NCBI GenBank assembly: GCA_027315365.1
Contig: DAHUYF010000024.1
Coordinates: 1-37,309, forward strand
Reading direction: 5' to 3'
Source of the DNA: Rhodospirillales bacterium
GTDB lineage: Bacteria > Pseudomonadota > Alphaproteobacteria > ATCC43930 > CGMCC-115725
DNA: 37,309 bases
Shown here: one piece after another, positions 14,968 to 20,384 of the stretch
Numbering within the stretch: the first letter of the stretch is position 1
Layout: the number at the start of each line of letters is the position of its first letter
Notes under the pieces: generated by a model
Told to the model about the DNA's origin: nothing
Database searches by the model: none
Seen by the model: only the letters and a program-made list of their open reading frames with translations
Position numbers and translations under genes: made by a program

Positions 14968-15813
14968 ATGGGCGTTCTCGACGGCAAGGTCGCGGTGGTG
15001 GCCGGCGGCACCAGCGGCATCGGCGCCGGCATCGCCGAGCGCTTCGTCGAGGCGGGCGCCAGCGTGGTGCTGGCCAGCCCGGTCGTCGAGGAGGGCGAGG
15101 CGCTGGCGGCAAGGCTCGGCGACAAGGCCCGCTTCCACCGCACCGACGTCACCGAGGAGGCGGAGGTTTCGGCGCTGGTGGCGGCGGCGGTTGCCGCCTA
15201 TGGCCGGCTCGACTGCATGGTCAACAACGCCGGCATCGCCGGCCGCTTCGGCGGCATCGCCGGGCTCGACCTGGCGCAATACGAGCGCACGCTGGCGGTG
15301 GTGCTAAAGGGCGTCGTGCTCGGCACCAAGCATGCGGCGGCGGCGATGCTGCGCCAGGGCTCGGGCAGCATCATCAACACCGGCAGCGTCGCCGGCTCGC
15401 GCGCCGGCTACGGCCCCTATGACTATTCCGCCGCCAAGGCGGCGGTGATCCACTTCACCCGCTGCGTCGCCATGGAGCTGGGCGAGAAGGGCGTGCGCGC
15501 CAACAGCATCTCGCCCGGCGGCATCGTCACGCCGATCTTCGCCAAGGCGCTGCAGCTGCCGCCGGAGCAGGTCGGGCAGAGCTTCGCGCCACTCGAGGCC
15601 GCGCTCGCCAGATGGCATCCCATCCCGCGCGCCGGCCGCCCCGACGACATCGCCGGCGCCGCGCTCTTCCTGGCGAGCGACGCCGCGAGCTTCGTCAACG
15701 GCCACGACCTCGTGGTCGATGGCGGCCTCGTCGCCGGCCGGAGCTGGCCGCAGCAGCGCGCCGCGACCGAGGAGCTGGTGCGCGCGCTCCGGCCGCCGCC
15801 GCCCGGCGCTTAG
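14968..15813 (+). CDS. Short-chain dehydrogenase/reductase
   Basis: 281 residues with classical SDR features: GGTSGIGAG (13-21) for the cofactor, NNAG (86-89), Ser140 (INTGSVAG), Tyr153 and Lys157 (YSAAK), and the PGGIVTPIF segment after the active site. The ATG follows GAGGCGGAGG. After VVLASPV there is no obvious Arg for NADPH; residues there do not settle the cofactor. The family oxidises or reduces alcohols and ketones; the substrate cannot be read. The C-terminal tail of about 30 residues (RSWPQQRAATEELVRAL) is longer than in minimal SDRs. It stands alone; its stop overlaps the convergent DUF3501 stop by 4 bases (TTAG). Confidence 0.92.
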   Translation: MGVLDGKVAVVAGGTSGIGAGIAERFVEAGASVVLASPVVEEGEALAARLGDKARFHRTDVTEEAEVSALVAAAVAAYGRLDCMVNNAGIAGRFGGIAGLDLAQYERTLAVVLKGVVLGTKHAAAAMLRQGSGSIINTGSVAGSRAGYGPYDYSAAKAAVIHFTRCVAMELGEKGVRANSISPGGIVTPIFAKALQLPPEQVGQSFAPLEAALARWHPIPRAGRPDDIAGAALFLASDAASFVNGHDLVVDGGLVAGRSWPQQRAATEELVRALRPPPPGA

Positions 15814-16400
15814 CCGAGATCCTCCGCCAGCGCCGCGCGCGTCGCCTCGGGCATCACCGCCAGGTGGCCGTAATTCGGGTGGTCGATGCCGACCATCACC
15901 GCGGTGCCGGGTTTGCGGAATGTCGCCGTCTGCGCCGCGGTGAAGGGAAAGCGCAGGAACTGCACCGAGGAGGCCTTGCCGTCGGCCGTGGTGTTCTCGC
16001 GCGTCGGGTCGGCGACGCCGGCGACGCGCTCGCCGCCGACCGAGAGGAACATGTGGTCCTCGACGCCGCCCAGGCGCGCCAGCGCGCGGTCGCGCTGCTG
16101 CGGGTCTTCGATCTCGAACATCACCGTGGCGACGATCTCGTCGCCCTTGGGGACGAGCGGGTTGTAGGCATCGAGCTCGTCCTTGATCTGCGCCTCGCCG
16201 CCGCGCTCGATGTGCAGCATCTCGTGCACTTGCAGCCACATCGTGTCGAAGCTCTCGAAATAGAAGGTACAATAGGGCCCGACTTCGATGCGGCGGCCAC
16301 GCTTCGCCTCGCCGATGCGGCGGCGATGCTCGCGGCGCTCGGCGGCATATTGCTCGGCGGGCAGGATGTCGGCGCGGGTGATCTCGCGCTTGGTCGGCAT
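15810..16400 (-). CDS. DUF3501 family protein
   Basis: 196 residues. The ATG at 16400 follows GGGAGC and is 11 bases after the Fe-S gene stop. Recognisable features are an N-terminal ITRADILPAEQY, then RRIEVGPYCTFYFESFDTMWLQVHEML and IKDELDAYNPLVPKGDEI, and a C-terminal HPNYGHLAVM. This matches the DUF3501 proteins I know beside rubrerythrin and a GlpC-like Fe-S protein in Proteobacteria. No function is established. His/Glu-rich segments (QVHEMLHIERG) would allow metal binding, but that is only a guess. There is one cysteine, no signal peptide and no membrane segment, so it is probably cytoplasmic. It is the last gene of the rubrerythrin operon. Confidence 0.87.
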   Translation of the reverse strand: MPTKREITRADILPAEQYAAERREHRRRIGEAKRGRRIEVGPYCTFYFESFDTMWLQVHEMLHIERGGEAQIKDELDAYNPLVPKGDEIVATVMFEIEDPQQRDRALARLGGVEDHMFLSVGGERVAGVADPTRENTTADGKASSVQFLRFPFTAAQTATFRKPGTAVMVGIDHPNYGHLAVMPEATRAALAEDLG

Positions 16401-16411
16401 GGCGGCGCTCC

Positions 16412-17758
16412 CTAGCTTTGCAGCAGCCCATAGGCGCGGGCGAAGAGCTCGATCGGATGGAACGCCGCGCCGGGCGGCTTGGTTTCGCCGTCGAGCAGTT
16501 CCATACCCTGCAGGATATGCGTGGCGGCGAGCGGGCATTCCGAGGCGAGGAAGGCCTTGTCGTTCTTCAGCGCCTGGCGCGACACCGGCTTGCCCACCTT
16601 GAGCGCCACGTCGAAATTCTCCTTGAGAACGCCCCAGGAACCGCCATGGCCGGAGCAGCGCTCGATCACCGCGACGTCGGGTTCGGGGAGCAGCCGCAGC
16701 ATCTCGGCCGCCTTGGGTCCCATGTTCTGCGCCCGGGCATGGCAGGCGAGATGCAGGCTGACCCCGCCCGGCAGCGGCGCCAGGCCGGGCGCCAGCCCTT
16801 CCTTCTTGGCGATGTCGACGACGTATTCGCTGATGTCGAAGGTGGCCTGCGCCAGTCGCTTCACCGCCGCGTCCTCCGGCAGAATCAGCGGCCATTCGAA
16901 TTTCAGCATCAGCGCGCAGGATGGCGTCAGCGCCACGATGTCCCAGCCCTCGGCGATGCGCGGGGCAAGCGCCGCCGCTACCTCGCGCGCATGCTCGGCG
17001 ACGCGCGCGAGATCGCCCTGCTCCAGATGCGGCATGCCGCAGCAGCGGGGATATGCCGCCTCGACGCTGACGCCGTTGCGCGCGAGCACGGCATGCGCCG
17101 CCTCGCCGATGCGCGGGTTGTTGTAGTTGACGAAGCAAGTGGCGTAGAGCAGCGCCTTGCGCTTGGCCGCCGGCGCGCCGGCATCGCGCTCGGGCGGCGC
17201 GGCTTCGGCACGCGCCACGAAGCTCTTGGCGTGGAATTTCGGCAGCTCGGCACGGCGGTCGATATCGGCGAGCTTCTCCATCACCGGCCGGGTCAGCGGG
17301 TTGCCCGTCCGGCTTGCCCAGTTGGCGAGCGGCGCCACCGCGCCGGCGAGCGCGCCGTTGCGGTCGGTTTCGACCAGCTGGCGCTGCGACCAGGAGAGCC
17401 TGCCCTCGCGGAAATCGGCGGCGCGATAGCGCAGCATCAGATGCGGGAAGTCGACCGCCCACTCGTGCGGCGGCACATAGGGGCATTTGGTCATGAAGCA
17501 CATGTCGCAGAGCGTGCAGGCTTCGACCACCTTGCGGTAATCGCCGCGATCGACGGCATCGACCTCGCCGGTGGCGGAATTGTCGACGAGATCGAAGAGG
17601 CGCGGGAAGCTGTCGCAGAGATTGAAGCAGCGCCGACAGCCGTGGCAGATGTCGAAGACGCGGTGCATCTCTGCGTCGATCTTGGCGCGGTCGTGGAAAT
17701 CCGGATTCTGCCAGTCGATCCGGTGCCGCGTCGGCGGCTCGAGACTGCCTTCTCGCAT
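16412..17758 (-). CDS. GlpC/HdrD-like Fe-S oxidoreductase subunit
   Basis: 448 residues. The N-terminal half carries two ferredoxin-type clusters: C38/C41/C44/C48 ([11 protein letters not shown]) and C81/C84/C87/C92 ([12 protein letters not shown]). The C-terminal half has CCG-type (DUF3483/Cys-rich) domains: YPRCCGMPH with an upstream ATC, and a second one with [11 protein letters not shown] and [10 protein letters not shown], where the CCG pair is degenerate (C-S-G). Such proteins resemble GlpC and the HdrD C-terminal unit and pass electrons between a flavoprotein and a quinone or thiol; no flavoprotein partner is adjacent. With rubrerythrin upstream and DUF3501 downstream it is likely to be part of an oxidative-stress electron path. 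This is an inference from context. Confidence 0.88.
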
Positions 17759-17836: not shown

Positions 17837-18256
17837 TCAGGCGAGCGCGTCGAGCGCCTTCTGGAACCGGCCGGCATGCGACTTCTCGGCCTTGGCGAGC
17901 GTCTCGAACCAGTCGGCGATCTCGTCGAAGCCTTCGTTGCGCGCGGTGCGCGCCATGCCGGGATACATGTCGGTGTATTCGTGCGTCTCACCGGCAATGG
18001 CGGCCTTGAGGTTGTCTCCGGTCGGGCCGATCGGCTTGCCGGTGGCGGGATCGCCGGTCTCCTCGAGGAATTCGAGATGGCCGTGGGCATGGCCGGTCTC
18101 GCCCTCGGCGGTGGAGCGGAACACCGCGGCGACGTCGTTGTAGCCTTCGACATCCGCCTTTTGTGCGAAATAGAGATAGCGGCGGTTGGCCTGGCTCTCG
18201 CCGGCAAACGCGGCCTTCAGATTGTCCTCGGTCTTGGTTCCCTTGAGTTTGGCCAT
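17837..18256 (-). CDS. rbr: Rubrerythrin (single ferritin-like domain)
   Basis: 139 residues. The diiron ligands are visible in two half-repeats: [17 protein letters not shown] with [16 protein letters not shown], then [18 protein letters not shown] with [12 protein letters not shown]. The C-terminal rubredoxin domain of classical rubrerythrins is absent, so electrons must come from another protein, plausibly the Fe-S protein encoded next. The family reduces hydrogen peroxide at a nonheme diiron centre in the cytoplasm. An Irr-type site and a TTGACA-containing promoter lie 60-110 bases upstream, and irr itself is the preceding gene, so iron/haem-responsive control is likely. Confidence 0.95.
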
Positions 18257-18314: not shown

Positions 18315-18345
18315 ATTCTATGACCCCGCCGGGCGCGAGTGTCAA
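18315..18345 (-). promoter_or_regulatory. Promoter of the rubrerythrin operon
   Basis: On the minus strand a perfect TTGACA (18345-18340) is followed after 19 bases by TAGAAT (18320-18315, 5 of 6 to TATAAT). The spacer is 2 longer than ideal, and with 17-18 bases CATAGA or ATAGAA could serve. The ICE-like site lies just upstream of the -35. Confidence 0.55.
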
Positions 18346-18348
18346 TAG

Positions 18349-18365
18349 ATTAGACAAATTCTAAA
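18349..18365 (-). promoter_or_regulatory. Irr-binding (ICE-like) site
   Basis: On the minus strand TTTAGAATTTGTCTAAT (18365-18349). The remembered Irr/ICE pattern is TTTAGAA-N3-TTCTAAA: the left half matches 7 of 7, the right half 5 of 7. It lies 3 bases upstream of the rubrerythrin -35 and in the gap directly after irr. Upstream placement would suit activation, overlap would suit repression; the sequence alone does not decide. Confidence 0.6.
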
Positions 18366-18406
18366 GAAGCGTCGGTGCTGAAGCGGCGGCTTGCGCCCGC
18401 CGCCGG

Positions 18407-18829
18407 TCAGTCCTCGTCGCGCTCGACGCGGATGATCACGTCCACCCGCCGGATGGCGGTGCCGGCCGGCGGCAAGGGCACGTTGCTGACATCGATGCGG
18501 TCGCCCGGGATGTCGACCAGCCGGCCGCTCTCCTCGAGGAAGAAATGGTGGTGGTCGCTCACATTGGTGTCGAAATAGGAGCGGCCGGGATTGACCACCA
18601 CCTCGCGCAGCAGGCCGGCGCCGATGAACTGGTGGAGTGTGTTGTAGACCGTGGCGAGCGACACCGGCACCGCGGCGGACACTGCCTCGCCGTGGAGCTG
18701 CTCGGCGGTGACGTGACGGTCGGCCTTGTCGAACAGCAGCCGCGCCAGCGCCAGCCGCTGCCGCGTCGGGCGTAGGCCGGCGCTGCGCAGCATTTCCAAC
18801 GCATTGGCGAAGGGGCGTGGTCCGCTCAT
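18407..18829 (-). CDS. irr: Iron response regulator Irr (Fur family)
   Basis: 140 residues. The winged helix reads EMLRSAGLRPTRQRLALARL and PVSLATVYNTLHQF. The haem/metal region SDHHHFFLE has three consecutive histidines (93-95), the alphaproteobacterial Irr hallmark, in place of the zinc cysteines of Fur; there are no cysteines at all. The N-terminal GCP haem-regulatory motif of the Bradyrhizobium protein is absent. Irr acts under low iron, binding ICE boxes to repress or activate haem and iron genes, and is inactivated when haem is plentiful. An ICE-like site lies just downstream before rubrerythrin. Its own upstream gap of 157 bp has no confident promoter. Confidence 0.93.
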   Translation of the reverse strand: MSGPRPFANALEMLRSAGLRPTRQRLALARLLFDKADRHVTAEQLHGEAVSAAVPVSLATVYNTLHQFIGAGLLREVVVNPGRSYFDTNVSDHHHFFLEESGRLVDIPGDRIDVSNVPLPPAGTAIRRVDVIIRVERDED

Positions 18830-18986: not shown

Positions 18987-20384
18987 TCAGTCGCCGGTCT
19001 GCAGCCGCTCGATCAGCTCGCGTACGGTGGGAATGAAGCCGTTGGCGTAGAACGGGTCGCGGGAGAAGCGGTAGGCGTTGTGGCCGGCGAACATGAGCTG
19101 GAACTCGACGTCGTCGGAATGGCTGATGGTCTGCAGTGTCTTCTGGATGCAGAAGCTGCGGGGATCGGCCTTCTTGCCGGTCGTGCCGTCCTCGTTCTGC
19201 GCCCAGTTGGAGAACTGGCAGGCGGACAGGCAGCCCATGCAGTTGATCTGATCCTCGCGGATCTCCAGCGCTTTCTCCGGCGCGACGAAGATCAGCGTCG
19301 AATCCGGCGTGCGCAGCGCCTCGGTGAAGCCCTGGCTCATCCAGGTCAGCGCGCGCTCGCGGTCGTGCGGCGTCAGGTAGACGACGCGACCGCGGGCGCC
19401 GACCTCGAGCGGCGCGAGATGGTCGCCCACCGCCTCGATGGCGTAGGCCACCTGATGCTCGGCGCGCTGCTGCAGCTCTCCCAGGAAGTCGTTGCGCACC
19501 GCCGAGGAATAGAAGCCGGTCGGGCTGAAGCGGTTGAGGTAGACGTCGCCTTCCTTGAGCGTCAGCAGCCGGCGCTTCCACGCCTCGGAGATGGGGCTCT
19601 CCTTGGTGAGCAGCGGCCGCGTGCCGAATTGGAAGGCCATCGGCCCGAGTTCGGGGCTGTCGATCCAGTCGCGCCACTCCTTGAGGCACCAGACGCCGCC
19701 GGCCATGAAGATCGGCGTCGCTGCCAGGCCCCATTCGCGCATCATCTGGCGCAGCTCGCGCACCCGCGGGAACGGTGCCTCCGGCTTCTCGGGATCCTCG
19801 CTGTTGGACAGGCCGTTATGGCCGCCGGCGAGCCAGGGGTCTTCGTAGACGACGCCGCCGAGCCAGTCGCGGAATTTGTGGTAGGCGCGCTTCCACAGCG
19901 CGCGGAAGGCGCGTCCCGAGGAGACGATCGGATAATAGTGGACGCCGTAATGGGCGCAGATCTCGGCGATCTTGTACGGCATGCCGGCGCCGCAGGTGAC
20001 GCCGTGGACGAGGCCGCGGGCGCCTTCGAGCACGCCGTGCAGGATGCGCTCGGCCGCAGCCATTTCCCACAGCACGTTCATGTGGATGCGGCCCTGGCCG
20101 TTGGAGCGCTCATGCGCGATGCGCGCCTGGGCGATGCCGCCGGCGATCGAATAGGCGATCAGCTCCTCATGCCGCTCGCGCCGGGTGCGGCCGCGATAGA
20201 TCTGGGCGAGGTAACCGCCCTCGGCGTCATAGGTATCGGCGTTGACGCCGGAAAAGGTGCCGACGCCGCCGCAGGCGGCCCAGGCGCCGGAGCTCTCGCC
20301 GTTGGACACGGAGATGCCCTTGCCGCCCTCGACCAGCGGCAACACCTCGCATCCGGAAATCACCAGCGGTTTAAGTCCGATCAC
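18987..20384 (-). CDS. Nitronate monooxygenase / PfaD-like flavin oxidoreductase
   Basis: 465 residues from GTG, preceded by GAGGGC. It is a TIM-barrel FMN protein of the nitronate monooxygenase/PfaD group: N-terminal SGCEVLPLVEGGKGISVSNG, glycine-rich GVTCGAGMPYKIAEI, PIFMAGGVWC and FGTRPLLTKESP. It is longer than the 320-350 residues of simple nitronate monooxygenases. The extra C-terminal part holds a cysteine cluster, C-x2-C-x3-C (INCMGCLSACQFSNW) with a further Cys in SFCIQKTL, possibly an Fe-S or zinc site. The substrate is unknown; nitronate oxidation is only the generic annotation. An AT-rich inverted repeat lies 54-76 bases upstream of the start. Confidence 0.8.
   Translation of the reverse strand: MIGLKPLVISGCEVLPLVEGGKGISVSNGESSGAWAACGGVGTFSGVNADTYDAEGGYLAQIYRGRTRRERHEELIAYSIAGGIAQARIAHERSNGQGRIHMNVLWEMAAAERILHGVLEGARGLVHGVTCGAGMPYKIAEICAHYGVHYYPIVSSGRAFRALWKRAYHKFRDWLGGVVYEDPWLAGGHNGLSNSEDPEKPEAPFPRVRELRQMMREWGLAATPIFMAGGVWCLKEWRDWIDSPELGPMAFQFGTRPLLTKESPISEAWKRRLLTLKEGDVYLNRFSPTGFYSSAVRNDFLGELQQRAEHQVAYAIEAVGDHLAPLEVGARGRVVYLTPHDRERALTWMSQGFTEALRTPDSTLIFVAPEKALEIREDQINCMGCLSACQFSNWAQNEDGTTGKKADPRSFCIQKTLQTISHSDDVEFQLMFAGHNAYRFSRDPFYANGFIPTVRELIERLQTGD

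Follow-up and report, generated by a model that had tools for sequence, protein, structure and literature searches.

The window, which was the whole stretch of 37,309 nucleotides analysed, carried on its minus strand a regulator gene followed by a three-gene unit, in the order irr, rubrerythrin (rbr), RFO (an Fe-S protein) and DUF3501. A gap of 150 nt separated irr from rubrerythrin and contained a predicted Irr box (ICE) and a promoter. The features were as follows.

18407..18829, minus strand: irr, Fur-family haem-responsive regulator (IrrA, NF045678) with an HHH motif at residues 93-95
18349..18365, minus strand: predicted ICE (Irr box) TTTAGAATTTGTCTAAT, two mismatches to the consensus, conserved before rbr
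18348..18346, minus strand: the 3 nt CTA between the ICE and the -35 element, read from the sequence
18340..18345, minus strand: -35 element TTGACA, 3 nt after the ICE, read from the sequence, register conserved
18317..18322, minus strand: probable -10 element CATAGA, weak, read from the sequence at a 17-nt spacer
17837..18256, minus strand: rbr, single-domain rubrerythrin without rubredoxin, 139 aa (PF02915, 106.9 bits)
16412..17758, minus strand: RFO, 448 aa, two 4Fe-4S-type cysteine motifs and a CCG region (PF02754)
15813..16400, minus strand: DUF3501 protein, 195 aa from the ATG at 16400 (PF12007, 208.9 bits)

The preliminary description had placed TTTAGAA-N3-GTCTAAT 3 bases before TTGACA, between irr and rubrerythrin, which was exact to the base, and its three-gene unit of a rubrerythrin without rubredoxin, an Fe-S protein and DUF3501 was borne out by the domain matches. 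The consensus used for scoring was TTTAGAAN3TTCTAAA, and the window site reads TTTAGAA-TTT-GTCTAAT. It was the sole place with three or fewer mismatches in the 37-kb window, and 100 shuffles of the window gave a mean of 0.01 such sites. The CATAGA element matched the -10 consensus at three of six positions by manual count, and a mechanical promoter scan with stricter criteria reported nothing at the rbr promoter. A second in-frame ATG for DUF3501 was present at 16415. The gene upstream of irr encoded a nitronate monooxygenase-like protein (18987-20384, minus strand; PF03060, 33.7 bits).

Irr and the proteins of the rubrerythrin operon

The irr product passed the NCBIfam IrrA model NF045678 with 215.5 bits (cut-off 150), and the HHH at residues 93-95 provided the HXH haem-binding motif. 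This motif was found in 122 of the 123 Irr proteins encoded next to rbr, with a gap in the remaining one. Irr of the Bradyrhizobium type has an N-terminal haem regulatory motif, GCP[WYFL]H. It was present in none of the 123 adjacent Irr reading frames, including that of the window, and a looser motif, CP[WYFLM], was present in two; haem-triggered degradation of the Bradyrhizobium type is not claimed for these proteins. According to the review PMC7762939, apo-Irr binds the ICE and releases it on haem binding, and the sign of control is set by the position of the ICE.

The rubrerythrin contained only the domains PF02915 and PF00210, and the rubredoxin domain was absent. It matched the solved rubrerythrins 9onm and 4di0 over the full length and sulerythrin (1j30) over residues 2-137. 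Sulerythrin and ferriperoxin of Hydrogenobacter thermophilus are likewise single-domain rubrerythrins, both from thermophiles. The protein failed the MbfA model NF045676 (19.1 bits, cut-off 450) and thus differs from the “rubrerythrin-like” blr7895 of the Irr literature, which is an MbfA homologue (PMC3413700) and the rubrerythrin meant in PMC6515984.

RFO contained a CCG domain, and 15 cysteines were kept in all 151 aligned sequences. It fell short of the GlpC equivalog cut-offs, scoring 182.4 bits where 278 are required and 107.3 bits where 279.9 are. The C-terminal half of the RFO model superimposed on LutA (Z 23.6, rmsd 2.2, 225 residues) and on HdrB (Z 19-20, about 240 residues), and the model matched EtfD of M. 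smegmatis along the chain (Z 22.3, rmsd 3.6, 367 residues). These fold relatives are Fe-S proteins of electron-transfer systems, and GlpC, LutA, HdrB and EtfD share with RFO the two 4Fe-4S motifs and the CCG region; the gene partner of RFO is rubrerythrin and not a dehydrogenase. A scan of the loci found no fusion of RFO with DUF3501.

The DUF3501 protein scored above the gathering cut-off of 25 bits for PF12007. Its model had a pLDDT of 96.9 and the fold of 3fjv (Z 25.4), and invariant charged residues among 98 sequences included R22, E49, E60, E65, E75 and R103. A function could not be read from the fold, since the only clear relative, 3fjv, is itself of unknown function. The other fold matches had Z scores from 4.4 to 7.3, below the meaningful level of the tool, and a second fold search gave no entry besides 3fjv with E below 0.001 among the matches listed; no relative is excluded by being missing from these matches.

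The same three gene families are clustered in the “aerobic-type” rubrerythrin cluster (PMC5114695), in which the rubredoxin domain is absent and DUF3501 has no known role. The window cluster belongs to this type, with no rubredoxin domain and with RFO and DUF3501 co-localised. A role of RFO as the electron transfer protein of the cluster was already proposed there (PMC5114695), and RFO may plausibly supply rubrerythrin with electrons. Alternatively, the rubrerythrin could be reduced by another donor, such as ferredoxin:NADP reductase (FNR) with NADPH, and RFO could have a different job. This would agree with ferriperoxin, a peroxidase that uses NADPH and FNR to reduce both H2O2 and organic peroxides (PMC3317640), but RFO and rubrerythrin are neighbours in the fetched loci as in the window and the fold relatives of RFO transfer electrons, and another donor is considered rather unlikely. 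The peroxide-reducing system proposed in the preliminary description gained partial support from ferriperoxin, a single-domain relative, as regards the peroxidase, although ferriperoxin received its electrons from NADPH and FNR (PMC3317640), which leaves the Fe-S protein a putative donor. The operon could also serve iron handling (as ferroxidase or in iron or Fe-S supply) or oxygen removal instead of peroxide defence, with Irr control as iron housekeeping. A haem/iron sensor as the controller of the operon would suit such a role, the authors of the Pelagibacter study labelled rubrerythrin a putative ferroxidase (PMC2864753), and RFO and DUF3501 have no demonstrated part in peroxide removal. 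The single-domain ferriperoxin, however, is a peroxidase required for the aerobic growth of its host (PMC3317640), and we regard an iron-handling or oxygen-removing role as unlikely.

Conservation of the ICE and its dependence on Irr

Of 387 alphaproteobacterial genomes, 194 had DUF3501; in a sample of 299 genomes from the phylum the number was 22. A strong Irr was defined by E below 1e-20, and by reading of the listings, made for DUF3501 genomes only, 16 of the 194 were without one. Regions around 175 listed DUF3501 places were fetched; not all of the 194 were listed, so genomes with a weak DUF3501 were under-sampled. Five short loci without rbr, L136 (a duplicate of L230) and 18 loci with no rbr match or with rbr at the edge were dropped from the counts, 11 of the last 18 being from Irr-lacking genomes. 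Ten extra Irr-lacking genomes were fetched and rbr was obtained from one of them (L216). The final set, including the window, consisted of 152 loci, 136 from Irr-bearing genomes and 16 from Irr-lacking genomes (nine alphaproteobacterial and seven of other classes).

Within 300 nt upstream of rbr, an ICE with up to two, three or four mismatches was present in 91, 121 and 135 of the 136 Irr-bearing genomes, compared with 1, 3 and 4 of the 16 Irr-lacking genomes (Fisher p of 3e-6 at two mismatches and 7e-9 at three). The contrast persisted when one locus was taken per 65%-identity DUF3501 cluster (58/67 vs 2/10 at three mismatches in a 350-nt stretch). Random 300-nt stretches of Irr-bearing loci had such sites in 1, 5 and 24 of 605 cases, and when 139 upstream stretches from the class were shuffled, the values were 0.0019, 0.017 and 0.096. 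In real DNA of the same loci, sites with up to three mismatches were found upstream of RFO in 3/136 and upstream of DUF3501 in 1/136. The best site had more than three mismatches in 15 of the 136 Irr-bearing loci. The ICE-like site that had been linked to Irr in the preliminary description was therefore kept before orthologous operons where Irr exists and was mostly gone otherwise; the outcome named there as refuting, a site not conserved at orthologous operons, did not occur (121/136 vs 3/16).

In 123 of the 136 Irr-bearing loci, irr was the immediate upstream neighbour of rbr and had the same orientation. Among the 13 loci without an adjacent irr, 12 had an ICE with at most two mismatches and the thirteenth (L188) had the palindrome ATTAGACTTTGTCTAAT, which indicates that the motif belongs to rbr and not to the 3' end of irr. 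Nine DUF3501 genomes were from other classes, and an Irr-like protein was found in only two of them, G582 and G649 (126 and 116 bits), while the others had Fur-level scores of 50-62 bits. The rbr genes of these two genomes (L177 and L188) were preceded by the ICE TTTAGATTGATTCTAAA and the palindrome ATTAGACTTTGTCTAAT, respectively. The best site of the other seven loci, in L178, had four mismatches and was non-palindromic; the ICE of L188 also has four mismatches, and the contrast outside the class therefore rests on the palindrome at that locus. In 80 named loci, in which Irr was looked for within the fetched stretch only, an ICE with up to three mismatches was present in 45 of the 53 with Irr in the stretch and in 9 of the 27 without. 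Six of the named loci, labelled sphingomonad or caulobacter (L249, L290, L292, L300, L304 and L305), had neither irr nor an ICE in the stretch (five to seven mismatches); the labels of metagenome-assembled genomes (MAGs) were from record titles and may be wrong.

Symmetric substitution between the two halves of the palindrome was significant for pair 3/15 (nine changed sites in total) and marginal for pair 4/14 (p 0.04, eight sites pairing G on one side with C on the other), and it was not significant in the other five pairs. The co-variation of Irr residues with half-site bases showed no signal, the best column reaching 0.183 bits against a permutation 95% level of 0.208.

The palindrome might not be the site of Irr, having arisen by chance, as part of the irr 3' end, or as the site of another Fur-type regulator. 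Sites of the Fur family can resemble each other, and L230 (genome G201, AT-rich) had a perfect ICE 84 nt before rbr with no Irr found above Fur level, for which a divergent Irr, an assembly gap or a recent loss may be the explanation. Against this stand the random-stretch controls, the dependence on Irr, the retention of the ICE where irr is elsewhere and its general absence in Fur-only genomes, and we consider an origin other than Irr very improbable. The comparison gave strong support to the Irr link in the haem/iron-controlled system of the preliminary description; the sign and the binding are what we infer.

The contig of L299, labelled as a gammaproteobacterial symbiont of Ctena, carried an Irr-like gene (L299:1755-2318, minus strand) with 43% identity and an HHHH stretch. 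This gene was divergent from rbr and about 0.7 kb upstream of it, and an ICE with one mismatch lay 65 nt before rbr. The arrangement suggests Irr-like control outside the alphaproteobacteria.

Promoter register and a second layout

Of the 121 Irr-bearing sites with up to three mismatches, 97 had a -35 element with five or six matches of six no more than 10 nt past the ICE; displaced control windows gave 3, 4, 4, 6 and 10 of 121. Among the 107 sites with a -35 element of at least four matches of six, 103 had a distance of 2-6 nt, 66 of them exactly 3 nt, and a -10 element of at least four of six followed at a 16-18-nt spacer in 70 (shifted control, 0.076). Two cultivated species share the layout, Parvibaculum sedimenti HXT-9 (L245) and Vineibacter terrae CC-CFT640 (L280), each with irr next to rbr, an ICE of one mismatch and, 3 nt further on, a -35 element matching 5 of 6. 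Given usual promoter spacing, the ICE would occupy positions from about -55 to -39. A promoter classifier was run on the 122 irr-adjacent loci with up to four mismatches; it assigned the ICE before the -35 element in 101, called another layout in 5 and was undecided in 16, and the criterion for the other layout fired in 14.

In five loci outside the class (L177, L188, L295, L297 and L298), full -35 and -10 elements were present and the ICE started 10 nt after the -10 element, covering roughly +4 to +20. L295, L297 and L298 are labelled beta- or gammaproteobacterial, and these MAG labels may be wrong. L188 and L298 had been called as ICE before the -35 element on the -35 alone, but the full promoter scores, out of 12, were higher for the other layout (L188, 11 vs 8; L298, 10 vs 6), and both were counted with it, whereas L283 tied at 9 vs 9 and was left out. 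The position 10 nt past the -10 element appears to be a second fixed register, in the place expected of a repressor. In the methylocystis-type loci L262, L264, L265 and L187, the ICE seemed by eye to overlap the -10 element, a position resembling that at mbfA, and the classifier was undecided on all four.

The mbfA genes were used as a position control. Eleven loci were over the cut-off, L197 was excluded because its truncated flank had led to a reading at the wrong position, and ten were readable; three of these had an ICE with at most two mismatches and one more had a site with three, further upstream. In the three loci, by our own reading, the ICE lay around the -10 element and the start, in contrast to the rbr ICE, which abuts the -35 element from upstream.

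Irr as the probable regulator of the operon and the sign of control

Since the ICE is conserved, nearly restricted to Irr-bearing genomes and constrained in its place next to the -35 element, the rbr-RFO-DUF3501 operon is very probably a direct target of the neighbouring Irr, a judgement from sequence comparison that concerns control and not its sign. In the model that we favour, Irr from the adjacent upstream gene would occupy the 17-bp ICE abutting the -35 element under haem shortage and leave it once haem, as a read-out of iron, is abundant. At low haem, Irr would block an otherwise strong promoter and thereby hold back an iron-rich system consisting of a di-iron enzyme and a multi-cluster Fe-S protein; with iron and haem plentiful, the operon would be released. 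RFO would hand electrons to the rubredoxin-less rubrerythrin, which would reduce peroxide, and the DUF3501 protein may be a scaffold or assembly partner.

For the alphaproteobacterial rbr promoter, repression by Irr is only slightly preferred over activation. A near-consensus core promoter requires no activator. This feature, the repressor position in the other layout, the iron-rich products, ccpA and mbfA account for the preference. In R. sphaeroides, ccpA starts about 40 nt after its Irr box and was slightly higher in an irr mutant at low iron, and mbfA, whose start site is inside the Irr box, was higher in the irr mutant (PMC3413700). The rubrerythrin gene of Pelagibacter (SAR11_0399) increased 1.57-fold (P 0.025) on iron limitation (PMC2864753), which is the opposite of repression and counts against it. 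Three Pelagibacteraceae loci of our set, SAR11_0399 not being among them, had the ICE followed by a -35 element of 5, 6 and 4 matches of 6. In M. gryphiswaldense, a rubrerythrin gene was 2.1-fold lower in anoxia (PMC9549626).

Activation at low haem, with Irr recruiting RNA polymerase from just upstream of the -35 element so that a haem-free peroxidase is made, is possible, though somewhat less probable. The tight register between the ICE and the -35 element, the position-dependent sign described in the review (PMC7762939) and the Pelagibacter response all agree with it, but the register could persist through shared ancestry alone, the layout outside the class is that of a repressor, and ccpA was higher and not lower in the irr mutant (PMC3413700). 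The -35 element is moreover near consensus, unlike that of many activator-dependent promoters. A reading with two opposite switches, in which Irr upstream of the -35 element activates at low haem in the alphaproteobacteria and the site past the -10 element makes it a repressor outside the class, is doubtful. If it held, a shift of the site along the promoter would have reversed the sign of Irr control, and a haem-free peroxidase would stand in for haem enzymes when haem is short. The window offers an exact predicted site for testing, and the two site positions are a natural experiment on repression and activation by the Fur family.

The three-gene unit, Irr and the ICE are each already known. 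The Irr/ICE system of rhizobia and Rhodobacter (mbfA, bfr and ccpA) shares both its regulator family and its 17-bp palindrome with the rbr locus. In the literature searched, no earlier description was found of the class-wide irr-ICE-rbr arrangement, its register, its loss with Irr and the second layout, and an earlier prediction is possible. The 2006 study of the Irr regulon was outside the literature search, in which no paper tying Irr to the rbr operon was recognised; reportedly, Rodionov et al. 2006 may already list a rubrerythrin gene among the predicted Irr targets. The main text of Cardenas, Quatrini and Holmes 2016 (PMC5114695) contains neither “Irr” nor “regulat”, and the adjacent irr and the ICE/promoter layout were not found there. 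Term look-ups in PMC7860042, PMC8007024, PMC6532209, PMC5459824 and PMC10374146 gave nothing on a link between Irr and the rbr operon. A widespread rubrerythrin system for which no regulator was found described in the literature searched would thus be placed under a named haem/iron sensor.

Genome-wide counts of the ICE were rejected as proof of an Irr regulon because 20 of 32 genomes were not above the reversed-pattern control at up to two mismatches. Good sites at this threshold numbered one in G012, two in the genome of the window, two in G011 and three in G038. In some genomes, therefore, the site between irr and rbr was accompanied by no more than two other good ICEs or by none, and since good sites are so few there, Irr may act almost exclusively on the rbr operon.

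Weak ICEs upstream of irr itself (two or three mismatches) were found in 19 of 122 loci, for example L071, L079 and L056, at scattered distances, compared with 5/605 for random stretches at up to three mismatches. The best match upstream of irr in the window had seven mismatches. These sites hint at autoregulation in scattered lineages and are outside the main claim.

The 4.97-Mb genome of the window did not stand out at three mismatches, with 11 sites against 9 for the reversed pattern. At up to two mismatches it had two sites, the rbr site and one near an rpoH-like gene, and the reversed pattern had none. The second site, TTTAGATTACTTCTAAT, was located at G000:C59:82774-82790 (L002:1501-1517), where an rluD-like gene ends, some 100 nt ahead of the rpoH-like gene (both named from their translations), and it reflects either a link of Irr to heat shock or chance.
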